NCBI GenBank assembly: GCA_013298895.1 | Contig: JAAFJM010000004.1 | Span: 1 to 64,000 of the forward strand | Reading direction: 5' to 3' | Origin: Bacteroidota bacterium | GTDB lineage: Bacteria; Bacteroidota; Bacteroidia; UKL13-3 | Length of the DNA: 64,000 nucleotides | Part shown: positions 13,045-26,640 of the stretch, one piece after another | Position numbering within the stretch: the first letter of the stretch is position 1 | How the letters are laid out: every line of letters starts with the position of its first letter | Program-made: the position numbers and the translations under genes | The notes under the pieces: generated by a model | What the model was told of the DNA's origin: nothing | Seen by the model: only the letters and a program-made list of their open reading frames with translations | Database searches by the model: none

Positions 13045-16000
13045 CTATTGTCTTATTAAGGTAATTGAACCACGAACTGTTTTTTCTGGCTCACCTCTTA
13101 ATTGATAAGTGAATAGATAATAATAAGTTCCTGCTGGGTTGTCACCACCATCGTTGTTGGTTTTTCCATTCCACATTTTTTGAGCGTTATCGCTTTCAAA
13201 AACGGTATTACCCCATCTGTTCCAAATTACGATACTGTATTTTTGATATCCTTCAATATCAATTTTAAACACATCATTTTTATCATCTCCGTTAGGTGTA
13301 AACACATTAGGAATATTTATTTTTCCTTTTGGAATAATTACTTGAATTACTTTACAAACAGAATCAGGACAACTATTTGTACCAGCCACATCAGCCACAA
13401 TACAAACATTAAATGCTCTGCTAGAATCTATGTCAAATGTTTGAACAAAATCATTCAAATTACTTGCTTCATCAAAATCTTTTGGAAAGCCTGTAAACTG
13501 TGAACCGTCAGGATTGTATATTTTCCATGTGTATTTATCAGAAATAATTGTATCAGATGTATTTACTAACTTAAATTGATTTTCACCTGCTTGAGTAGCG
13601 GTAAAATCGGCCTTAGATTTAGCTGCAACCATTAATATAGTATCGTGGTTTGGACAAGGCGAATAAGCCCTATCAAACTTAGTTGATGCAAGAACAAGTT
13701 TATACTGACCTACATTATTAAACCTATACTGCCAAGCGGTATCGCTAATATAATTAGTTTTCAATACTGAATCTAGTTTTGTTCCTAAGGCAGCATCAAA
13801 CACATCCAATCTATAACGGTTAATGGTATCTCTATCAGATTGGTTTCTTAGTTTAAATACTTCACCCACACAAACCGTGTCTTTAGAACTTACTAAATCA
13901 ACCTTGTAAGGAACATTTATAACTATTCGTATTGGTTTTTGTGCTCCATCTACCGTGTCAGGAACTATAGCTGGCCTACAAGCACTAGCGCTACCATCTT
14001 CCGTATTATAACCCTCGGCTGTAATATAAAAAGTTCCCGGTTGGTCGTAATAGAAAACAGCAGTATCAATTACAGAATATTTATAAGTATATGATAACCT
14101 ATCAGGACGACCAGAACGTATAATAGTTAATTTGGTAAATGTATCTTCTGGTAAAGACCAGCTTTCTCTTTCAGGAATATTCACCACTCTTACTCTTTGC
14201 GGTGTACAACCTAAAGTATCATCAAGCAAAATTAAGTGTGGACGAGGACCACTCAAAATGATATCTTTCTCTACTTCGCTCTTACACCCTTGTTCAGTTA
14301 TAATTTCTAATCTTACTCTGTATTTTCCATATAATCTATAGTCATACTGAGGGTTTTTTAAGATAGATTGAGGTGCTTTTGGAAAATACTTTCTATCGCC
14401 AAACCACCATTTCCATTGTGCAATTCTATCTAACGAATCAACACCTGTAGAAGCAGCATAACCATCTAAAATTATGGTAGAGTCTCTGAAAAGATATTGA
14501 TCACCACAAATAAATAAATCTTTTGAAGCAATTTGCGCAATAGGTTTTACCACATTCACAAACTGAATACAAGTATCCCATCTTCCTGTACTATCTATAG
14601 ATATCATAGATACTTTGTATCTTCCCCACTTATCATATTTATGCGATACATTTGGTAGTTTTCCGGGAGTTAATTCTGTATTTGCTTCTAAATGATCGAT
14701 TACACCATCACTTTCAAAATCCCAGTAAATACGTTCACGGAAAAAATCATTACCTTTAAATCTATAGCACTTGGTTATGGTTTTGCCTACATCGTTGGTT
14801 GAAACAATTGGTAATAAATTAAACCCTATAGGACAAGTAGAAATACCATTAGGAAATACTTCGTAATCCCAAGGAACTATGGTAATGTCGGGTCTCAAAG
14901 AATCTATTGGATAATTATTTTTGGTATAAGCCCATTGGTGCATATTTCCATGGTCATGAAAATCGTTGAAATTTTCATCTGGTGCTAACGGACGCGAACA
15001 AGCTGATGATGGATACCAATAGCGAACCGAATCCCTAAAAAACACAGTTTCCCCTTCACAAAATACAGTATCCAAATCACCATTGCTATTCAAAATATCA
15101 AAGGTATCAATTACACCTATTACAAGATGGTGTATTGCCAATGATTTACACCTTGAAAATGTATTTGAAATCATAGTATGTTGCACTTCGGTAATATCAC
15201 CTTTTCTTATTAGTTCATTATTACCACCTAAAACCATATTCTCAAACGATGATTTTTCATATTTGTGGGTAATCGGTAATAGCATGAAACTCGAATCTAA
15301 AATATTGATTGTTGTATCATATTTGGGTGTCAATTTATTAATATCTGAACATTCGTAATACTGTCTAATAACGGTGTCTCTAGAAATACGAGTACCTATT
15401 GGAAAATATTCCAATACAGGCGAAGCAGTCCAAGGTAAAGTAAGTGTATTGTATTGGTATCTAATTCTATTATAAGGCTCATCAGAGTTAGGTTGATAAT
15501 AGAACGAATCAATAGTTGCAGTACCATCACCCCAATTCCAAACATCAGCAATCAAATTATCCTGAGTTGAATCTACATAATGAAAAGTAACATTATCGCC
15601 TTTACCTCTTAAATAACAGAAAGATTCTTTGGCATTAATTGTTTCATTTTCATAAGAGTATTTTTCAGTTCTAAAATCAGCATTAAAACTAATATACCTG
15701 AAGAAGCGATGATACCAAACTGTATCACTCATACCACATTTTTGATCAGGTATAGTACAATTTGTTGGAGTTGCACAGCCTGTTCCTACTACCAATCCTA
15801 GTGTTATCCAACCTCTTTTTTTATCAAAAGGCATTGGAGATGCACCAACAGGGCTACTTCCGTCAGGATAATAATGCACAAATGTACTTGATCCTGAAGG
15901 TCCTGTCCATGCTTGCGGTAGTGGCGTATAGTTTGGCGTATTCCACATTGGAGGCATAACTAAGTTACCTCTTGTTCTACCTGCCTGAACTTTTCCTTCT

Positions 16001-19000
16001 GCAGAAAAGTCTAAATTGGCAGAACCATCAAAAGGTACAAAATTGTCTAAAACACATGGTGTTAAATCATTTCTATCTAGTAACGAATCGTAATTAATTT
16101 GTAAGAACGACCTTCCATTACTAGGCATGATACCAGCACCTGTAACTGATTGGGCTGTATCTAAAAAGCCTGTATTGTCAAAAACCAATTTAGCATCTCC
16201 ACCAAAATCTCCGTTTTTAGAACCTGGACAAATTCTTCCACTTTGAGTTAAACCAAAAGCATCAGGTCTAACAAAATTTAGGGATACGGTGTTAGAACCA
16301 TTACAATCCCAATCATCTAAAAATAATGAGTCGGTAATTAAGGAATCCTTTGAACCTTTAGTAATAGGATCATAAATTTTAACAATTTCTGTTTTAACTT
16401 TTACTTGTCTATAATCAGGATCATCCGAAGCATTGTTCAGCGAATCCTTCATTTTTAATCTTACAGAAACCTCTCTTATAATATCTCGTTTAAAAGCATA
16501 TTCATAGAGTGTCATTACGGGTCTTATTCCCGGTATGGTATCACTTCCGCGGTACCTTCTAATTCTTTTGTCGTTAGCTAAAGTTAAATTTATAAGTAAA
16601 CCTCCTGTATCTATTCTAGTACCCGATTTTATAATATCCATCCAATTTCCGCGCGAGGCCGATATTGGATCGGGTATATCTTTACTTAAAGTAATTATCC
16701 TATTAGGTGCAATATCGGTAGGCCAAATATTTACCATAGTATCCAATCTTGATTGAACGGCACCAACAGCCCTAATTTGTTTATTCCAAGTAGAAGTATC
16801 TTCACCTGCAACCCAATTTACACCTGTGGGTGGTGCTATTGGAGGAGGCCAGCTTGAATGACTTAAGGTCCAGTCTTTCGACCATCTTACAGTATCATAA
16901 GGCGGAAAATCATGACCATATTTATACCATGACAATATTTTATCCCAATTAGTGAATTGATGCTTTGGTAGTGAATCGTGTGAGTAATTACAGCCATTGT
17001 ATCTACCCAAATATCTATTTCCATTTGCTATAAATGCTCCAAAAGTTCTTGCTTGCATATCAAACGCATCTGTGTATGGCGGTTCACCTGCGTTTGCAGT
17101 TGTTGGGTTAGGAATAGAATACGAAGTACAAGCAGGTGCATATTGATTTTCACCAAAATCCCAATTTATCCATAACCTATGCGATTGGTAAACAACAGAT
17201 GTATTAACAAAGTCTACTGGATAAGTTGGCCCACATTGCGTTTTTTGCCAAGGTAAAATAACAATTGGAGGAGGAGAGGTTTTTTCAATTCTTACTTGAG
17301 GACCAAGTATGTTAACACCCATTCCAATCAAAATATCACCTTCTAATTTATACCAATTATTATTTACTGTAATTAAGTTTGACGAGTCTTTGGGCAAATA
17401 AACTATTTCGGCTGCATTTAAGGCTACAGTGTCAAGTGTGCTAAAATATACAATACTATCTATAGTAAGTGGCGCAACTATATTGTTCCCTGGATAAAAA
17501 TATCCTTTTTGGCCAAATACATCTATTATTGTATCATTTTGGTTTGGCCTAGGAACTAAAGTTAGTCTGTATTTAATTGGTGAAGAATATTCATATATAG
17601 CAGGTACCGTGTTTAAAAAACCTGTAAATGGATTTTTGAAAGTATATTGAACAGTATCCCAATAATTAGGAATGAAAGTGGTGTCGGTATTAAAAAAATC
17701 ATAACTTCTAGATGTAAAATCAAGATTTTTCTGATGTCTATAGTAAAACCCTAAAAAATTAGTTGGGTTAGTTGGGTCTATTATGGTATCGATTTTATAA
17801 TCAGAAATTTGACCGTTATAATTAATCAGTACATACTTACTGCTATTCAATAAATTATTACTTCTTAAATAACGACCAACTCTGGTTGGTATACTAGGAA
17901 ATAATCTATAAGAGTTAGGGTTTAACGAAGTAGGAAAACTAGGATTAGGTGCTCTAAAATAATCTAGGTACTGATACCTGTTTTTATCCTTGGGTAGTGT
18001 ATCTATTTTAGAATAAAAGTTGTAAACAAATGGCTTAGGAGGAAGGCCCGGGCAAACTACAGTTAGGGTAGGATAAAACTGACCCATTCCTAAATATTTA
18101 TAGGTTGGTTGGTCTTCGGTAAATCGATCGCTTACACCCGGATTAGTGGCGTTTGGATCGTTAAAATTCCAAATAATATCTAATCTTGTTCCACCTTTTC
18201 CTATTAATTCTTTGTTGTTATAAAGTGTTACAGCCCCCGATTGTGGACTTAAAAAACATACAGAATCAGCTATGGTATCGTTTTGAAGTTCTCTTTTTGT
18301 TAAAATTTCAATCTCGTAAATAATATTTTCAGGTAAACGCAATCCACTTGTTCTGTAGTAGAATGTATCAGCACATCCGAGTGGTTTATTTTCAACCGTT
18401 AATGTAGGATAAAAAACATTATTTTGTGTATATTTATGAGTAAATGATTTTGTCCACATATTAAAATCTTGGGTTACAGTATTAGGCGGACCAGATACAT
18501 ATTTAGTACCATCGCCAAAATCCCAAGTAAATGATTTTACAAATGAAAAACCTAATGGAGTAGTATTGGTATAAATATAAGGAGTAGTATCGCAGCGAGG
18601 TTCACCTGTAATAGTAAATTTAGGGTTAATATCTGCAGCTAAACTTATTACTCTTACACTTTGAAAATCTCTAGTAGGGTCGGTTCTACAACCTACAGAA
18701 TCTACAACTGTTAAACTAACTTTATAAGTTGGGTTAACTAAATTATATTTATGACAAACATTTCTAACATTTGTATCAGTTATTAAACGCGCATTACCAT
18801 CGGCATAAACCCACTCATAGCTTAATAACGGTGCATCCCCTTGCTTCGTTAGATTATTAAAACAGTAGTTATTATTTTTGAAGCATTGTGTATCTCGGCT
18901 TGCTAGCGTAATAATTGTTTTAGGTCTTTCCCAAATTTTTCTTTCTTTAGTAACTATAATATCAGGCCCACTTGTTCTTTTAACCACAAGTGTAATGGTA

Positions 19001-19299
19001 TAAAGACCACCTTTATTATAAATTTTTGAGAAAAAAGTACTCGGGGGATTAGGCCCATTCCTTGTTAACATAGAGGTGTCGTTTGGAATACCCCATCTTA
19101 CAGTGTATGATAAAACATCTGCCTCAGGAATTCCCGGAATTACATTAACCTGGGTTAAGTCAACTTCCGAACACGCTATTTTAGGTGTCATTGTAAAGTC
19201 GGATTGGGCTTTAACCAATACAGACATAAACAATAACAAAATTAAAACCGCCTTGTGTTTTAATTTGTTGGTTGATAGTTTAAAGTACATATATTTCAT
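13045..19299 (-). CDS. giant T9SS type B surface protein with PKD-like repeats
   Basis: A 2084-residue secreted protein. Signal peptide (about 1-31, ending VLVKAQS), then a long chain of PKD/Ig-like beta domains marked by recurrent WDFGDG, WVYADG, WNWGDG and WWFGDR motifs and HKY tyrosine-corner turns. The C-terminal 90 residues form the gliding-motility-associated (type B) sorting domain: IPNVFTPNGDDKNDVFKIDI, then YSIVIWNRWGNTVFES and a final GSITLIRQ. Such proteins are exported by T9SS and held at the cell surface, often as adhesins or motility proteins. It lies 68 bp downstream of the sigma/anti-sigma pair and may be their target or operon member. Partner and ligand unknown. Confidence 0.9.
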   Translation of the reverse strand: MKYMYFKLSTNKLKHKAVLILLLFMSVLVKAQSDFTMTPKIACSEVDLTQVNVIPGIPEADVLSYTVRWGIPNDTSMLTRNGPNPPSTFFSKIYNKGGLYTITLVVKRTSGPDIIVTKERKIWERPKTIITLASRDTQCFKNNNYCFNNLTKQGDAPLLSYEWVYADGNARLITDTNVRNVCHKYNLVNPTYKVSLTVVDSVGCRTDPTRDFQSVRVISLAADINPKFTITGEPRCDTTPYIYTNTTPLGFSFVKSFTWDFGDGTKYVSGPPNTVTQDFNMWTKSFTHKYTQNNVFYPTLTVENKPLGCADTFYYRTSGLRLPENIIYEIEILTKRELQNDTIADSVCFLSPQSGAVTLYNNKELIGKGGTRLDIIWNFNDPNATNPGVSDRFTEDQPTYKYLGMGQFYPTLTVVCPGLPPKPFVYNFYSKIDTLPKDKNRYQYLDYFRAPNPSFPTSLNPNSYRLFPSIPTRVGRYLRSNNLLNSSKYVLINYNGQISDYKIDTIIDPTNPTNFLGFYYRHQKNLDFTSRSYDFFNTDTTFIPNYWDTVQYTFKNPFTGFLNTVPAIYEYSSPIKYRLTLVPRPNQNDTIIDVFGQKGYFYPGNNIVAPLTIDSIVYFSTLDTVALNAAEIVYLPKDSSNLITVNNNWYKLEGDILIGMGVNILGPQVRIEKTSPPPIVILPWQKTQCGPTYPVDFVNTSVVYQSHRLWINWDFGENQYAPACTSYSIPNPTTANAGEPPYTDAFDMQARTFGAFIANGNRYLGRYNGCNYSHDSLPKHQFTNWDKILSWYKYGHDFPPYDTVRWSKDWTLSHSSWPPPIAPPTGVNWVAGEDTSTWNKQIRAVGAVQSRLDTMVNIWPTDIAPNRIITLSKDIPDPISASRGNWMDIIKSGTRIDTGGLLINLTLANDKRIRRYRGSDTIPGIRPVMTLYEYAFKRDIIREVSVRLKMKDSLNNASDDPDYRQVKVKTEIVKIYDPITKGSKDSLITDSLFLDDWDCNGSNTVSLNFVRPDAFGLTQSGRICPGSKNGDFGGDAKLVFDNTGFLDTAQSVTGAGIMPSNGRSFLQINYDSLLDRNDLTPCVLDNFVPFDGSANLDFSAEGKVQAGRTRGNLVMPPMWNTPNYTPLPQAWTGPSGSSTFVHYYPDGSSPVGASPMPFDKKRGWITLGLVVGTGCATPTNCTIPDQKCGMSDTVWYHRFFRYISFNADFRTEKYSYENETINAKESFCYLRGKGDNVTFHYVDSTQDNLIADVWNWGDGTATIDSFYYQPNSDEPYNRIRYQYNTLTLPWTASPVLEYFPIGTRISRDTVIRQYYECSDINKLTPKYDTTINILDSSFMLLPITHKYEKSSFENMVLGGNNELIRKGDITEVQHTMISNTFSRCKSLAIHHLVIGVIDTFDILNSNGDLDTVFCEGETVFFRDSVRYWYPSSACSRPLAPDENFNDFHDHGNMHQWAYTKNNYPIDSLRPDITIVPWDYEVFPNGISTCPIGFNLLPIVSTNDVGKTITKCYRFKGNDFFRERIYWDFESDGVIDHLEANTELTPGKLPNVSHKYDKWGRYKVSMISIDSTGRWDTCIQFVNVVKPIAQIASKDLFICGDQYLFRDSTIILDGYAASTGVDSLDRIAQWKWWFGDRKYFPKAPQSILKNPQYDYRLYGKYRVRLEIITEQGCKSEVEKDIILSGPRPHLILLDDTLGCTPQRVRVVNIPERESWSLPEDTFTKLTIIRSGRPDRLSYTYKYSVIDTAVFYYDQPGTFYITAEGYNTEDGSASACRPAIVPDTVDGAQKPIRIVINVPYKVDLVSSKDTVCVGEVFKLRNQSDRDTINRYRLDVFDAALGTKLDSVLKTNYISDTAWQYRFNNVGQYKLVLASTKFDRAYSPCPNHDTILMVAAKSKADFTATQAGENQFKLVNTSDTIISDKYTWKIYNPDGSQFTGFPKDFDEASNLNDFVQTFDIDSSRAFNVCIVADVAGTNSCPDSVCKVIQVIIPKGKINIPNVFTPNGDDKNDVFKIDIEGYQKYSIVIWNRWGNTVFESDNAQKMWNGKTNNDGGDNPAGTYYYLFTYQLRGEPEKTVRGSITLIRQ

Positions 19300-19367: not shown

Positions 19368-20267
19368 TTAACGTATGAGCTTTATTTTGGTCATTTGTGT
19401 TTGTAATTTATCATTATTAATAAATTTAAAATTCAAAACTCCATAGTAAATACCACTATTACAAGCTTGTCCAGTTTTCTGACTAACTCCATCCCAAGTA
19501 AAATTTTTATCATTACTTTCAAAAACTAACTCGTTATTAAAATTATAAATTTTTAAATTAAACAGTTTTTCACCTTCAATTTCTATTACATACCTATCAT
19601 TTAAACCATCATTATTTGGTGTTAACACATTAGGTGTTTTAATAAATGCTGATTCGTTTTTGTTTGTTTCGGTTGATTCAAAATTATTTTCAATATTTTC
19701 AATTGAATCAATTTTATCATCCAAATCAATCTCAGGTATGGTAGTATTTGCAATTATCTCATTAACAACTAAAGGAGTAACAGTCTGCTCAAGATTTTTA
19801 TTATTTGAACCTTCTTGCTGTTTATTCTCCACATTTAACTTATGCTCAATAAAATTATCATTAATATAAGCATCTTGGGTTTTAATTAAATTATTAGAAA
19901 CATACTTTTCATTGTTTGTAAAAGTTTGTTTTGGCTTATCAGTTACCTGCGTTTTGTCTAAACTAATTTCTGGAGAATTTACTGCAATTGGTACTTTTAA
20001 TTCTGCAACTTTTGATTCTCTTTCAATATTTTCTTTTTTACTATTTTTAGTGTAAAAAAAAGTAGCCACCGAAGTAGGAATTGCCAGAATAGCCGTTACT
20101 TTGATAACAGTTAAAGCCCATTTGCTAAATACAACCTTACCACCAGCTACACCACTTTGAGCAGCTGCATTGGCTTGCATACCTTGCTCAATTCCGGCCC
20201 AAATATTCGGGGCATCGGGAGCAAAATCCTGCATTTGTTGTTTTAATATTTCGTCTAAATTATTCAA
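19368..20267 (-). CDS. putative anti-sigma protein with T9SS type B C-terminal domain
   Basis: A 299-residue single-pass membrane protein. Its start overlaps the ECF sigma stop by four bases, the usual place of an anti-sigma gene. Residues 1-45 are cytoplasmic-like with MNNLDEILKQQMQDFAPDAP; a single membrane helix spans about 50-72; a hydrophilic Asn/Glu-rich linker covers about 75-205; and the last 90 residues are a gliding-motility-associated C-terminal domain (TPNVLTPNNDGLNDRYVIEI, WDGVSQKTG, final TKIKLIR). There is no cleavable signal peptide at the N-terminus, so the domain should project into the periplasm from the inner membrane. No FecR or zinc anti-sigma motif is visible. Role as anti-sigma is inferred from position and topology. 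Confidence 0.75.
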   Translation of the reverse strand: MNNLDEILKQQMQDFAPDAPNIWAGIEQGMQANAAAQSGVAGGKVVFSKWALTVIKVTAILAIPTSVATFFYTKNSKKENIERESKVAELKVPIAVNSPEISLDKTQVTDKPKQTFTNNEKYVSNNLIKTQDAYINDNFIEHKLNVENKQQEGSNNKNLEQTVTPLVVNEIIANTTIPEIDLDDKIDSIENIENNFESTETNKNESAFIKTPNVLTPNNDGLNDRYVIEIEGEKLFNLKIYNFNNELVFESNDKNFTWDGVSQKTGQACNSGIYYGVLNFKFINNDKLQTQMTKIKLIR

Positions 20268-20797
20268 TTTACTTTTTTATATTCTTTTATAAAAGCTGCT
20301 CTTGCTCTTGCAAGTTGGCTTTTTGATGTTCCTTCATTAATTCCAAGCATTTCTGCTATTTCGGCATGCGAAAACCCTTCAATGGCATATAAATTTAAAA
20401 CTGTTCTATATCCTAATGCCAATTTTTGCATGGTTTCCATAATTTCTTTTTGACTGATCCTGTCAATTGTAAAATTATCAAAGCCTAAATCAAACTCTTC
20501 AGCTATATCGGCAGTTTCAGTATAAAATTTATTAACCCTTAAATGTTCTAAAGCACAGTTAACAAAAATTCTTCTCATCCAAGCTTCAATTACACCTTTG
20601 CCTTCAAATTGCTTCATTTTTCCAAAAACCCTAATATAACCTTCTTGCAAAGTATCTTTAGCGTCTTCGGCATCTTTACAATACCTCAAACATATTCCAT
20701 ACATTTGCTTAGAAGTAAGTTCATACAACTTTTTATGAGCATTAGAATTCCCTTGTATGCACTTTTCAATTAAATCTTGAGTTACGTTTTGGCTCAC
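20264..20797 (-). CDS. ECF RNA polymerase sigma factor (sigma-70 family)
   Basis: A 177-residue extracytoplasmic-function sigma factor. Region 2 contains YGICLRYCKDAEDAKDTLQE, which binds core polymerase and the -10 element. Region 4 ends in the helix-turn-helix GFSHAEIAEMLGINEGTSKS followed by QLARARAAF. Start is GTG at 20797; no in-frame ATG fits the family start better. It is translationally coupled (ATGA) to the downstream membrane protein, and a giant T9SS cargo gene follows. Its regulon cannot be seen here, but auto-regulation and control of the surface protein gene are plausible. Confidence 0.92.
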   Translation of the reverse strand: MSQNVTQDLIEKCIQGNSNAHKKLYELTSKQMYGICLRYCKDAEDAKDTLQEGYIRVFGKMKQFEGKGVIEAWMRRIFVNCALEHLRVNKFYTETADIAEEFDLGFDNFTIDRISQKEIMETMQKLALGYRTVLNLYAIEGFSHAEIAEMLGINEGTSKSQLARARAAFIKEYKKVN

Positions 20798-20941: not shown

Positions 20942-23707
20942 TTGATTGCTAAAAACAAACATATAATATTCGTTGTAACCTTGCTTCTGAGTTTGGTGTT
21001 TAACATAAAGGCACAGGTGTTTAATGAAAATAAAAACAACAGTTTTTACCTTACAGAAAACAAAGGACAATGGGATTCCGATATAAAATATAAATATACC
21101 AACTCAGTCAATCATATATTATTCAAACCAAATCAAATCAAGTATTACTTTTTAAACGATGAAAATGTAAGTAAAGCAAACCATCATTTAAAAAAAGGTG
21201 AAAAAGAAATGGGTTTAATAAATGGCCATTTAATAACCCTTAATTTTATGGCTGCCAATTATAACTCCATCATTTTAGCAAGCGTGCAAGCTGCTCCATT
21301 TTATAAAAATTATTATATTGGAAATAATCCTAAAAAATGGCAATCAAAGGTTCAATCATTTTGTCAAATTACCTATCAAAATATTTATCAAAATATTGAT
21401 TTAAAAGTTTCTACAAAAGATGATATCGGATTAAAATACGATTGGGTAATTAAACCTAATGCTAATTTAAACGAAATAAAACTTGATTTCCAAGGGGCAG
21501 ACACCATTTACAGTCAATACAACGAATTATACATAAAACACAGTCAAGGTATTTTAAGGGAACAAAAACCTTTTGCTTATCAAATAATTAATGGCAAGCG
21601 AGTTACAGTAAATGTAAATTATGCTATTAACAAAAACACAGTTAGTTTTAATGCTGACTTTTATAATAAAAACTATGAGCTAATAATTGACCCTGATTTA
21701 ATTTTTAGCACTTACAGCGGAGCCACTGATGATAATTTTGGATTTACCGCCACTTATGATAGTGAAGGGAATTTATATGCTGGGGGAGTTACCACCGATG
21801 CTTTTGGAGGTGAATATCCAGTAACTGCAGGAGCATTTCAGTTAACTTATAAAGGTGGAGACTTAGAAGCACCGGTGAATTTGGCATGCGATATAACCAT
21901 AAGTAAATACAGCAGTGATGGTAAACAATTGATTTACGCTACTTATTTGGGTGGCATAAAAAACGAATACCCGCACAGTTTGGTAGTAGATAATAACGAC
22001 AATTTGGTAATAATGGGAACCAGCAAATCAGTTGATTTTCCCATAAGTGCAGATGCTTACGACAATACTCAAAATGGCGATATTGATATTATTGTGAGTA
22101 AATTGAGCAAAGATGGAACAACACTTTTAGGCTCTACATTTGTAGGTGGTTTGGGTAGCGATGGACTAAATATTAAACCTTTTTTAAACACATTTTATGC
22201 AGATGAATTTAGAGGCGATGCTATTATTGACAAGCAAAATAACATCATAATTGGCAGTTGTAGTTTTTCAACTGATTTTCCAGTAACTTCGGGTTCATTT
22301 GGAGCTGCTATTCCTAGTGTTATTCAAAAAGGTGTCGTTTTTAAACTTTCGCCTACTTGCAATAATTTGATTTTTAGTGCTGCCATGCCAGGCAATAGCG
22401 AGGATGTAATTTACAGTGTTGACCTAAACCAAATGGGTGATATTTTTATAGCTGGAACCACTACTGGCAATTTGCAAATTCCAACTGCAACCAATTCATT
22501 TATTGGAGGGAATTCTGATGGCTTTTTTGCAAAAATAAAATTTGATGGCTCCACCATTTTAAAGGCAAAATATTTTGGCACTATTCAAAACGACCAAGTA
22601 TTTAGTTTGGAAATTGATAATAATGAAGATATTTATATAGTCGGAAATTCACTTGGAAATATTGCACCCATTGGAAATGTATATTCTGTAACGAATGGAA
22701 AACAGTTTATTAGTAAGATAAACAACGATTTTAGCACCATCAATTTTATAAGCACTTTTGGGCGAGGTTCAACAGATGTAGATTTAAGTATCAACGCCTT
22801 TTTATTAGATGACTGTGGGCGCTTATACATAAGCGGTTGGGGTGGCAATAATCCAAGATTTGGATTGGGCGGAAATACCTCAGGATTACCTGTTACCAAC
22901 GATGCATTTCAAAAAACTACAGATGGTAACGATTTTTACTTAATGGTATTAAGTCAAAATGCTGAAAAAATTTTGTATGCCACATTTTTTGGCGGAAACA
23001 ACTCGTCAGACCACGTAGATGGAGGAACTAGTAGATTTGACAAAAAAGGATATATTTACCAATCAGTTTGTGCAAGTTGCCCCGCTACAGGTAATTTTCT
23101 GAGCGATTTTCCAACCAATGCTGATGCAGTTTATAAAACTAATTTGAGCCCAAGGTGTAGCAACGCGGCTTTTAAAATGTCGTTTAGGTTTAACCAAGCC
23201 ACCATTGAAATGAAAATTGATACTTGTGCAAAAATTGTAACACTTGGTACCCCAATAGAAAACGCACTTAACTATTTATGGCTATTGCCAAATGGAAAAA
23301 CAAGTATTTTAAAAAACCCAATGGTTACGATTGATGAAATAAACAATAAAGAAATTGTACTAATTTTAAATGCTAATACTAATTGTGCCGACACTGCCAA
23401 ACAAACCTTAAACTATAATGAATCACTTAACAATGTAAAATTTAGCAATGTATTTACCCCTAATAATGATGGAATAAATGATTTGTTTTTTATAGATGGT
23501 ATTAGCCAATGTGGTGAATATGAATTGACTTTTTTTAACCGTTGGGGGCAAGAAATTTTTAATACAACAACCAACCAACCAAAATGGGATGGAAAAACCA
23601 GCAATGGGCAAGATGCTTTAGCGGGAGTATATTATTATTTGGGTTATTATAAAAAACAAAACGAACCAAAAGTAAAATTGCATGGTACAGTTACTTTAAT
23701 TAGGTAA
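20942..23707 (+). CDS. T9SS type B surface protein with SBBP-type beta-propeller
   Basis: A 921-residue secreted protein. Start appears to be TTG at 20942, placing a signal peptide directly at the N-terminus (about 1-25); no in-frame ATG is found close upstream. An N-terminal DUF7948-like domain (about 30-240; ENKGQWDSDIKYKY) is followed by SBBP/propeller repeats with recurring YATYLGG, LGSTFVGG and YATFFGG motifs (about 245-760), a short PKD-like segment, and a type B sorting domain (about 835-921) starting SNVFTPNNDGINDLFFID and ending GTVTLIR. It heads a plus-strand run with a PorV/PorQ-like barrel and a helix-hairpin-helix barrel gene. Surface role unknown. Confidence 0.88.
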   Translation: MIAKNKHIIFVVTLLLSLVFNIKAQVFNENKNNSFYLTENKGQWDSDIKYKYTNSVNHILFKPNQIKYYFLNDENVSKANHHLKKGEKEMGLINGHLITLNFMAANYNSIILASVQAAPFYKNYYIGNNPKKWQSKVQSFCQITYQNIYQNIDLKVSTKDDIGLKYDWVIKPNANLNEIKLDFQGADTIYSQYNELYIKHSQGILREQKPFAYQIINGKRVTVNVNYAINKNTVSFNADFYNKNYELIIDPDLIFSTYSGATDDNFGFTATYDSEGNLYAGGVTTDAFGGEYPVTAGAFQLTYKGGDLEAPVNLACDITISKYSSDGKQLIYATYLGGIKNEYPHSLVVDNNDNLVIMGTSKSVDFPISADAYDNTQNGDIDIIVSKLSKDGTTLLGSTFVGGLGSDGLNIKPFLNTFYADEFRGDAIIDKQNNIIIGSCSFSTDFPVTSGSFGAAIPSVIQKGVVFKLSPTCNNLIFSAAMPGNSEDVIYSVDLNQMGDIFIAGTTTGNLQIPTATNSFIGGNSDGFFAKIKFDGSTILKAKYFGTIQNDQVFSLEIDNNEDIYIVGNSLGNIAPIGNVYSVTNGKQFISKINNDFSTINFISTFGRGSTDVDLSINAFLLDDCGRLYISGWGGNNPRFGLGGNTSGLPVTNDAFQKTTDGNDFYLMVLSQNAEKILYATFFGGNNSSDHVDGGTSRFDKKGYIYQSVCASCPATGNFLSDFPTNADAVYKTNLSPRCSNAAFKMSFRFNQATIEMKIDTCAKIVTLGTPIENALNYLWLLPNGKTSILKNPMVTIDEINNKEIVLILNANTNCADTAKQTLNYNESLNNVKFSNVFTPNNDGINDLFFIDGISQCGEYELTFFNRWGQEIFNTTTNQPKWDGKTSNGQDALAGVYYYLGYYKKQNEPKVKLHGTVTLIR

Positions 23708-23747: not shown

Positions 23748-24560
23748 TTGAAATCGATTTTAAAAATAGTATTGCTGATTATTGCATTCCAAAAAGTGAA
23801 TGCTCAAATAGTGCACGACCCAATTGGTGCAAGAGCTTGGAGTTTAGGAGGAAGCAATGCAGCTGAAAGTAATGTGTTTTCTGTAAATAATAACATGGCT
23901 AGTTCGGCCGAATTAAAAAACTACCAATTAGGCATTTATAACCAAACTCGTTTTGGTGTAAAAGAGCTTAACTTAATTAACTCAAGCTTTTTACTCCCAA
24001 CTAAATTTATTCATTTAGGTTTAGGTATAAACCACTACGGGTACGAAAAATATAACCAACAAAATTTTAGCTTCGGAATTGCGAAAAAGCTTAACAACAA
24101 CTTTAACTTAGGTGTTACAATAAATTACCTAACCATAAACATTGCGGAGCAAGAAAATACAGGAGCTTTAACAGGCAGCTTAAGTGTTTTTTATAAAATT
24201 AATAAAAACTTGCAGTTAGGTGTTTTATTATTCAATCCTACTCAAAGCAATTACCACATAAACACCTATGGAAAAGTAAATACTTTTGGAAGAATTGGTG
24301 TAAAATACCAGGTGAATAAAAGCGTGTATTTAATTGGCGATTTGGATAAAACACTTGAACAAGAAACCATTTTGAGAGGTGGTATTAATTATGCTCTTCA
24401 CCCCAATTTTGACTTAAGTTTAGGATATGCAAATAACCCTAATTATTTAACCTTTGGTTTTAATGCCAAAGTAAAAAAAATGGACTTAGCGTTTGCTGCA
24501 AGTATGCATGAAATATTGGGTTTTACACCACATATTGGTTTGATATTTTATGGCAAATAA
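23748..24560 (+). CDS. PorV/PorQ-like outer-membrane barrel protein
   Basis: A 270-residue predicted outer-membrane beta-barrel. TTG start at 23748 gives a signal peptide (about 1-19, ending KVNAQ). The mature N-terminus HDPIGARAWSLGGSNAAES resembles the GARALALGG segment of PorV/PorQ (FadL-like barrels of the T9SS). Alternating hydrophobic strands continue to the end. It is shorter than typical PorV. Position right after a T9SS type B cargo gene suggests it handles that cargo, as PorP/SprF-type partners do for other type B proteins; this is inference. It overlaps the next gene by 11 bases. Confidence 0.6.
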   Translation: MKSILKIVLLIIAFQKVNAQIVHDPIGARAWSLGGSNAAESNVFSVNNNMASSAELKNYQLGIYNQTRFGVKELNLINSSFLLPTKFIHLGLGINHYGYEKYNQQNFSFGIAKKLNNNFNLGVTINYLTINIAEQENTGALTGSLSVFYKINKNLQLGVLLFNPTQSNYHINTYGKVNTFGRIGVKYQVNKSVYLIGDLDKTLEQETILRGGINYALHPNFDLSLGYANNPNYLTFGFNAKVKKMDLAFAASMHEILGFTPHIGLIFYGK

Positions 24561-26640
24561 AAGGTTTGTTTTTATAAAATATTTAGGTGCTTTGGCAATG
24601 GTATTTTATGGCAAAATATTGTTAGCACAAAAATTGCAAAACAAAACCGAAATTATTTCAACCATAATTGAAAGATTAATAGAAAACACAGAATCTACGA
24701 TAGATTACACCGATTTGCAAGCCCAACTTGAATACTTATACGACAACAAAATTAACCTGAACAAAGCCACTGATAATGAATTAAGGCAACTCATTTTTTT
24801 GAAACAAACCGACATACTAAATATTTTAAACCACCCAAAACTATATGGTAATTTTGAAAACATTTATGAGCTACAAGCCATTGATAATTTAAGTGACGAA
24901 AACATTTATTTTTTAAAACATTTTGTAATGATAAATGAAGGCAATAAGCAACTAAAACTGAGTGAACTTAAACAAGTTGGCAAAACCGAAATAGTATTGC
25001 AACATGAAAACGATTTTCAACAACGTTTAGGTTATAAAACCAATGAGTTAAAAGCACAAAACAAGCAATATTACTTAGGTTCGCCCTATCGTTATGTGGT
25101 CAGAGCCAAACAAAAATTAGGTAAAAATATTGATTTGGGATTTACAACTGAAAAAGATGCAGGTGAACAGTTTTTTGAAGGCGAACAAAGAAATGGTTTT
25201 GATTTTTATTCAGCACATATTCATATAAAAAATGTATGGCGTTTTAACCAAATAATTATTGGCGATTACCAAGCTAATTTTGGCCAAGGGTTGACCTTTG
25301 GCAGTGGCCTATCTGCTCGAAAGTCAGCTTATGTATTAAATGTAAATAGGTACTTTCAAAATATTAGACCTTACCGAAGTGTAAACGAATTTGAGTTTAT
25401 GCGCGGTGCAGCCTTAAACTATGAATATAAAAATTGGACCATAATTGGTTTTGTATCAAGCAAAAAAATAAACACCAATTTTCAAACTGCCGATACCAAC
25501 CAAATAAACACTTTTGATGGTTTTACAGGTTTTAATGTAACAGGCTTTCACCGAACAGCCAATGAAATTGCTGATAAAGAAAATGTAAATCAAACCATTT
25601 TAGGAATGCATATTCAGCGTGATTTTAAATTTTTACAAGTAGGATTTACAGGAATAAAAACCAATTACAGCAGTCCTTTTTTACCTAGTAATGCCTTGTA
25701 CCAAAAATATAATTTTACTGGAAATCAACTTATAAATGGAGGCATTGATTATAAATTGTCTTTAGGAAATGCTTTGTTAAGTGGCGAGTTTTCGAGTAGC
25801 GATAATGGTGCATTTGCCACTACACACTCCCTTTTAATAGCTTTGGATAACAAACTAGACCTTTGTATGTTATACAGAAATTTTGACAAAAACTACCAAG
25901 CAACCTATAATAATCCATTTGCAGAAAACAGCGATGGGAGAAATGAATCAGGATTTTATTTTGGCATAAGTTATAAACCTAAAAAAGCTTTGGTATTTAA
26001 TCAATACATCGATTTTTATCAATCAAAATGGCTGCGGTTTTTGGTAGACGCACCAAGTAAAGGATATGATGTTTTGAATGAAGTACAATACAATCCTTCT
26101 AAAAGTTTAAATATGTATGTGAGGTATAGATTTGAAAGCAAAGAAAAAAACGAAATCAATAACGATGAAGCCCTTAACGATGTATTGGCAGTGCAAGAAA
26201 AACAGCAATTTAGGTTTCATATCAAGTACAAATTAAGCCTTTTGTTAGAAGCTGAAACGAGGTTAGAACAATCTTATTTCACCACAAAAAATATTAAACC
26301 TAGCAATGGAACATTAATTTACCAAGATATAAAATACAAAGCTAATGGAGGAAAATGGACCTTGAGTGCTAGACTTGCCCTATTTAGCATTGATGATTAT
26401 AATGCCAGAATTTATTCTTACGAAGACAATTTACCATATACTTTTACTGTACCTTTGTATCAAAACAGTGGTAGCCGATTTTACTTAATGGCCAAATACC
26501 AAGTAACAAAAAAAATAAAATTATTTGCTCGGTATGCCCAAACAAAATATAATAATATAAATAATATTGGCACTGGTTTAGAACAAATTAGTGGCAATAC
26601 GCAAAGCGATTTAAGTATGCAATTACAAGTAAGTTTTTAA
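24550..26640 (+). CDS. helix-hairpin-helix domain outer-membrane barrel protein
   Basis: A 696-residue protein with signal peptide (about 1-27), a short ComEA-like helix-hairpin-helix region (about 70-135: KINLNKATDNELRQLIFL and a second ENIYELQAIDNLSDENI unit), and then a long series of amphipathic strands typical of an outer-membrane barrel (GDYQANFGQGLTFGSGL, FYFGISYKPKK, and so on to QLQVSF). This fusion of an HhH motif with a barrel is widespread in Bacteroidota and, as far as I know, uncharacterised. DNA uptake has been suggested by analogy with ComEA, but there is no direct support here. It overlaps the PorV-like gene by 11 bases. Confidence 0.75.
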   Translation: MANKRFVFIKYLGALAMVFYGKILLAQKLQNKTEIISTIIERLIENTESTIDYTDLQAQLEYLYDNKINLNKATDNELRQLIFLKQTDILNILNHPKLYGNFENIYELQAIDNLSDENIYFLKHFVMINEGNKQLKLSELKQVGKTEIVLQHENDFQQRLGYKTNELKAQNKQYYLGSPYRYVVRAKQKLGKNIDLGFTTEKDAGEQFFEGEQRNGFDFYSAHIHIKNVWRFNQIIIGDYQANFGQGLTFGSGLSARKSAYVLNVNRYFQNIRPYRSVNEFEFMRGAALNYEYKNWTIIGFVSSKKINTNFQTADTNQINTFDGFTGFNVTGFHRTANEIADKENVNQTILGMHIQRDFKFLQVGFTGIKTNYSSPFLPSNALYQKYNFTGNQLINGGIDYKLSLGNALLSGEFSSSDNGAFATTHSLLIALDNKLDLCMLYRNFDKNYQATYNNPFAENSDGRNESGFYFGISYKPKKALVFNQYIDFYQSKWLRFLVDAPSKGYDVLNEVQYNPSKSLNMYVRYRFESKEKNEINNDEALNDVLAVQEKQQFRFHIKYKLSLLLEAETRLEQSYFTTKNIKPSNGTLIYQDIKYKANGGKWTLSARLALFSIDDYNARIYSYEDNLPYTFTVPLYQNSGSRFYLMAKYQVTKKIKLFARYAQTKYNNINNIGTGLEQISGNTQSDLSMQLQVSF

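Follow-up and report, generated by a model that had tools for sequence, protein, structure and literature searches.

A putative ECF sigma/anti-sigma pair of Bacteroidota whose membrane partner carries a diverged T9SS type B-like C-terminal domain

Introduction

FlgM and FliA form a secretion-coupled anti-sigma system in which FlgM is soluble and is exported. Little is known about how Bacteroidota sense the load or the state of the T9SS. In P. gingivalis, a protein with a T9SS C-terminal domain (CTD) acts upstream of PorXY-SigP (PMC7712824). This protein, PorA, is found at the cell surface, has a signal peptide and acts via a two-component system (PMC7712824). PorA-PorXY-SigP is the only CTD-to-sigma link that we found in the literature searched; a search for CHU_C or gliding C-terminal domains together with sigma or anti-sigma factors returned nothing relevant. 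Type B CTDs (TIGR04131 / PF13585) are carried by T9SS cargo, e.g. SprB with SprF, and in F. johnsoniae five type B CTD motifs are each required for secretion (PMC12618676).

The Dma anti-sigma factors of B. theta have the most similar published layout to the protein described here (PMC13088901). They consist of an N-terminal sigma-binding module, one TM helix, a long disordered tether and, at the C-terminus, a domain that faces the outer membrane, namely an outer-membrane beta-barrel. Their genes adjoin ECF sigma genes, they are confined to the Bacteroidota, their cognate sigma factors are ECF21 and anti-sigma activity has been shown for Dma1.

In this work we analyse an ECF sigma gene and its overlapping neighbour, hereafter the partner, in a stretch of 64,000 nucleotides from a Bacteroidota bacterium (the window; assembly GCA_013298895.1, contig JAAFJM010000004.1). 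The features of the locus are collected in Table 1.

Results

Table 1. Features of the sigma-partner locus in the window
Positions	Strand	Feature	Basis
13045..19299	(-)	Giant type B cargo, 2084 aa, PKD repeats and CTD with NRWG; same operon	Pfam, NCBIfam
19368..20267	(-)	Putative membrane anti-sigma factor with CTD (partner), 299 aa, TTG start	
19371..19643	(-)	Partner: CHU_C / type B-like CTD, residues 209-299	Pfam 53 bits; pLDDT ~90+; fold match to T9SS CTDs
19536..19541	(-)	Partner: Phe-Asn, residues 243-244, where cargo CTDs have near-invariant Arg-Trp	CTD alignment
19644..20051	(-)	Partner: predicted periplasmic tether, variable and disordered, residues 73-208 (~135 residues)	Identity within genus; pLDDT mostly <50
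20052..20129	(-)	Partner: single TM helix, residues ~47-72	Hydropathy; same place in 34 homologues
20136..20267	(-)	Partner: N-terminal module, predicted cytoplasmic, LDxxLKxQMxxFxPxxPxxxWxxI, residues 1-44	Homologue alignments; module also beside ECF genes with barrel or other C-termini
20264..20797	(-)	ECF sigma factor, 177 aa	Pfam Sigma70_r2 and r4_2; NCBIfam TIGR02937
20816..20844	(-)	Candidate ECF promoter TGCAAC-N18-ATCAA, ~19 nt 5' of the sigma GTG	Exact N18 in 42/48 homologous sigma genes
20942..23707	(+)	DUF7948/SBBP protein with type B CTD (NRWG present), divergent	Pfam, NCBIfam; conserved neighbour

The sigma factor matches Sigma70_r2 and r4_2, both above the Pfam cut-off. With regions 2 and 4 only, and a candidate ECF-type promoter 5' of its own gene, it belongs with the ECF sigma factors, as a sequence-only reading of this DNA had claimed. 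Its stop shares 4 nt (TTGA) with the TTG start of the partner at 20267. The same reading placed a giant type B cargo gene 68 bp downstream, and this is borne out: the gene begins 68 bp past the partner stop and its type B CTD scores 53 bits, above the cut-off, while its signal peptide was judged by eye. In 34/35 genomes of the family we find the same sigma-partner-giant operon, with gaps of -8 to 74 nt. The family giants, directly downstream of the partner, carry a CTD and measure 1,300-2,500 aa wherever the contig does not truncate them, and a divergent SBBP-like CTD gene usually lies at the other side of the operon. The divergent SBBP-CTD gene of the window is followed directly by two genes that are conserved in the genus, one (23748-24560) with a weak match to the PorV/PorQ family (33 bits against a cut-off of 90) and one (24550-26640) for a protein of 696 aa that includes a ComEA-like stretch.

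The promoter signature GCAAC-N18-(A/G)TC is present upstream of the sigma gene in 42/48 cases with a spacing of exactly 18 nt; at other spacings the same pair of elements gives just 0-4 occurrences. It is found upstream of 3/33 sbbp genes, and is absent upstream of the partner (0/44) and giant (0/51) genes. It looks like an ECF promoter for the whole operon, giant included. A scan of this genome with TGCAAC-N18-RTCWA gave 10 sites, compared with 8 for a reversed control. This pattern therefore lends no support to a large regulon, and because the scan gave no excess over the control the regulon may be small. Two sigma-promoter-like sites in this genome are kept in congeners: one precedes the gene of a 237-aa T9SS type A-like protein (L220, contig C34:191430) and the other that of a 198-aa OMP-like protein (L218, contig C18:7841). 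Both genes are possible regulon members and are offered as leads only.

The partner has just one hydrophobic stretch, at about residues 45-72, behind a conserved N-terminus of 44 residues. This N-terminus exceeds a signal-peptide n-region both in length and in conservation, and so the partner has no cleavable signal peptide on the evidence of hydropathy and conservation. The layout that had been read from the sequence is supported, with a predicted cytoplasmic N-terminus, one TM helix and the CTD in the predicted periplasmic half. Within the genus, residues 1-30 share a mean identity of 81% and the CTD one of 74%, versus 34% for the tether, which indicates that both ends of the partner are constrained. 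No Pfam or NCBIfam family matched the N-terminal module, and its structure is modelled with low confidence (pLDDT 50-65).

This arrangement is less isolated than the sequence-only reading suggests, as the N-terminal module is common to beta-barrel anti-sigma-like proteins of the published Dma layout. A profile built from the module only was found in 39/247 genomes of the phylum, and in 21/21 proteins inspected from those 39 genomes an ECF gene directly adjoins the module gene. The C-termini of these proteins are beta-barrels (OMP_b-brl, some above the cut-off), unmatched stretches or a CTD. A paralogous ECF pair in the same genome (L089:7554-9726, on contig C1), which is conserved across the family, is a convenient example. 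Its partner has two tandem N-modules, a TM helix, a disordered tether of ~210 residues and a beta-barrel that is modelled with pLDDT >90 and has OmpA-like matches, with no Pfam match; this is the layout of the Dma anti-sigma factors (PMC13088901).

The partner CTD matches CHU_C over residues 209-287 with 53 bits against a cut-off of 27. For the type B model TIGR04131 it scores 31.1 and 33.6 bits, just below the cut-off of 35 that defines type B cargo. In structure comparisons it recovers the T9SS CTDs 8glk_D (Z 8.9), 8gl8_D (7.9) and 5m11 (7.8) among other Ig-like folds. We aligned 36 sigma-linked and 83 cargo CTDs and defined the motif NRWG from the latter. Its Trp is present in 83/83 cargo domains versus 0/36 sigma-linked domains, and its Arg in 99% versus 6%. 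Both classes keep D11, N14, D15, W49, G51, G63, Y65 and R89. In a second set of loci RW is found in 0/12 sigma-adjacent CTDs versus 81/91 others; one of the ten exceptions, L140, turns out to be a partner gene that is cut off, and others read RY. NRWG may be one of the five type B CTD motifs of F. johnsoniae, whose letters are published in a figure (PMC12618676). Since all sigma-linked CTDs have lost Arg-Trp, export and cleavage in the manner of cargo is unlikely. The earlier reading of a type B sorting domain thus holds for the domain itself, given the CHU_C match, and does not hold for a plain sorting signal, given the loss of Arg-Trp: judged by its sequence, the partner CTD is not a plain cargo or sorting domain.

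A tree of the CTDs needs 3 label changes for the sigma-linked class. Separate origins of this class were considered and set aside, as the AU test does not reject a single clade for it (p-AU 0.77 once the RW columns are removed). The loss of Arg-Trp may have been a single ancestral event that was widely inherited, so the counts above are to be read as non-independent trials, and the contrast as a lasting signature rather than as many independent events. We also considered whether the partner CTD is uniquely closest to the CTD of the giant; this holds in several genera and fails in this genome.

The check that had been proposed for this locus, a search for homologues with a TM helix and a CTD beside ECF genes, finds the adjacent pair in 34/35 family genomes and also in Bacteroidota of other lineages. 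Beyond the family it occurs in two further genomes (G038 and G052) and at 12/80 GTDB loci, Crocinitomicaceae and other Flavobacteriales MAGs included; of the 12, at least two (L133 and L137) appear to have been counted already among the other genomes. Most of the non-family pairs have no giant downstream (L100, L145, L147, L179, L187 and L083), and the giant therefore cannot be the general ligand. Several sigma-linked partners (L075, L076, L078, L079, L082, L083 and L088) have an additional PKD-like domain between the tether and the CTD, confirmed by Pfam for L083 only.

The link to the T9SS that had been suggested for this locus is supported by its context. This genome encodes SprA, four PorP/SprF proteins, 13 type B CTDs over the cut-off and >100 type A cargo CTDs. 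In two related MAGs (L134:4621-8208 and L135:1796-5436) two tandem PorP/SprF genes and a gene for a GldJ-like lipoprotein lie beside the sigma-partner-giant operon.

Discussion

The reading that we favour, and to which we would give about an even chance, is that of an autoregulated ECF sigma/anti-sigma pair with a Dma-like build, whose periplasmic sensor, a mimic of the cargo tag, derives from a CTD and docks on the type B secretion route without being secreted. What the sequence shows is the layout, its conservation, the operon, the promoter signature and the divergence of the CTD, while the anti-sigma activity, the topology, the docking partner and the direction of the signal are our inference. 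The cytoplasmic module of the partner would bind the sigma factor, and the inner-membrane helix and flexible periplasmic tether would carry a sensor that faces the envelope. This sensor would be a type B CTD minus the Arg-Trp of exported cargo. It would dock reversibly on a component that handles type B CTDs, for which SprA, the giant encoded downstream and a shuttle of the PorP/SprF kind are candidates, and would not itself be secreted. Cargo that passes or stalls would alter the occupancy of the CTD, and this in turn would alter the release of the sigma factor. The freed sigma factor would then transcribe its own operon, including the giant cargo gene. In this way the pair is the probable link between the state of the T9SS and the transcription of a giant secreted protein.

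Compared with their published layout, the partner resembles the Dma proteins (PMC13088901) in the order of its parts, in the adjoining ECF gene and in its restriction to Bacteroidota. It differs from them in that a CHU_C/type B CTD without Arg-Trp takes the place of the outer-membrane barrel. As its C-terminus has a CTD/Ig-like fold and is not an outer-membrane barrel, we regard the partner as a variant of Dma and not as a member. The cognate sigma factor of Dma is ECF21; that of the partner gives a generic sigma70-ECF match. The anti-sigma activity shown for Dma1 is for the partner our inference. One anti-sigma module with interchangeable sensor domains for the outer envelope (barrel, CTD, or PKD and CTD) would extend the Dma idea.

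As in PorA-PorXY-SigP (PMC7712824), a CTD-bearing protein would feed into an ECF sigma factor that is tied to the T9SS. Here, however, it is the presumed anti-sigma factor that bears the CTD, so that the CTD-to-sigma link would consist of one protein, and the loss of Arg-Trp and the promoter motif make this link testable. The partner shares the CTD fold and most conserved residues with type B cargo, e.g. SprB (PMC12618676), yet it differs from cargo in its inner-membrane anchor, the lack of a cleavable signal peptide and of Arg-Trp, and its TIGR04131 score.

Comparison with FlgM is also instructive. With the partner, too, sigma activity would depend on what state a secretion machine is in, but the partner is membrane-anchored and probably not exported. 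More tentatively, and with rather less confidence than an even chance, we suggest a widespread class of Bacteroidota anti-sigma factors in which a non-exportable, inner-membrane-tethered mimic of the type B tag reads traffic along the type B route and sets cargo synthesis. If this is true, the tethered mimic is a membrane-bound counterpart of FlgM-style secretion feedback.

A CTD that has lost its contact with the T9SS could serve a genuine sigma/anti-sigma pair as a plain Ig-like periplasmic sensor of a ligand or of stress. The uniform loss of Arg-Trp would fit such an exaptation, as would the extra PKD domain of several homologues, the pairs that have no linked cargo, and the many Ig-like folds from outside the T9SS that score as high as T9SS CTDs in the structure comparison. 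We nevertheless consider it rather unlikely, as the positions conserved in cargo, from D11 to R89, are kept, the family operon includes a type B cargo, and PorP/SprF and GldJ genes adjoin it at two loci.

It is improbable that the T9SS instead still translocates the CTD, or that the CTD is kept at the outer membrane, in which case the protein would span both membranes like a Dma barrel protein, and sigma release would report a working machine as a tethered analogue of FlgM export. The near-invariant Arg-Trp is gone in every case, the TIGR04131 score is below the cut-off and an inner-membrane anchor would plug the translocon; this is set against a layout of N-module, TM helix and tether like that of the barrel anti-sigma-like proteins, a disordered tether of ~135 residues that could cross the periplasm, and a CTD that retains its fold and most conserved residues.

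That the partner is an ordinary membrane-anchored structural or cargo-like protein, beside an ECF gene by chance, is very improbable even though its N-module belongs to no Pfam or NCBIfam family: both genes, with their domains unchanged, stand side by side in 34/35 family genomes and at about a dozen outside loci (12 in the GTDB scan), which is not chance, the module stands beside an ECF gene with unrelated C-termini in every one of the 21 proteins inspected, and the partner and sigma genes overlap by 4 nt.

Finally, we note three short ORFs of 149-219 aa that encode CTDs without RW (L208:8605-9261, L142:8665-9255 and L211:3824-4270), with no sigma gene found nearby. These may represent another class of non-cargo CTD.
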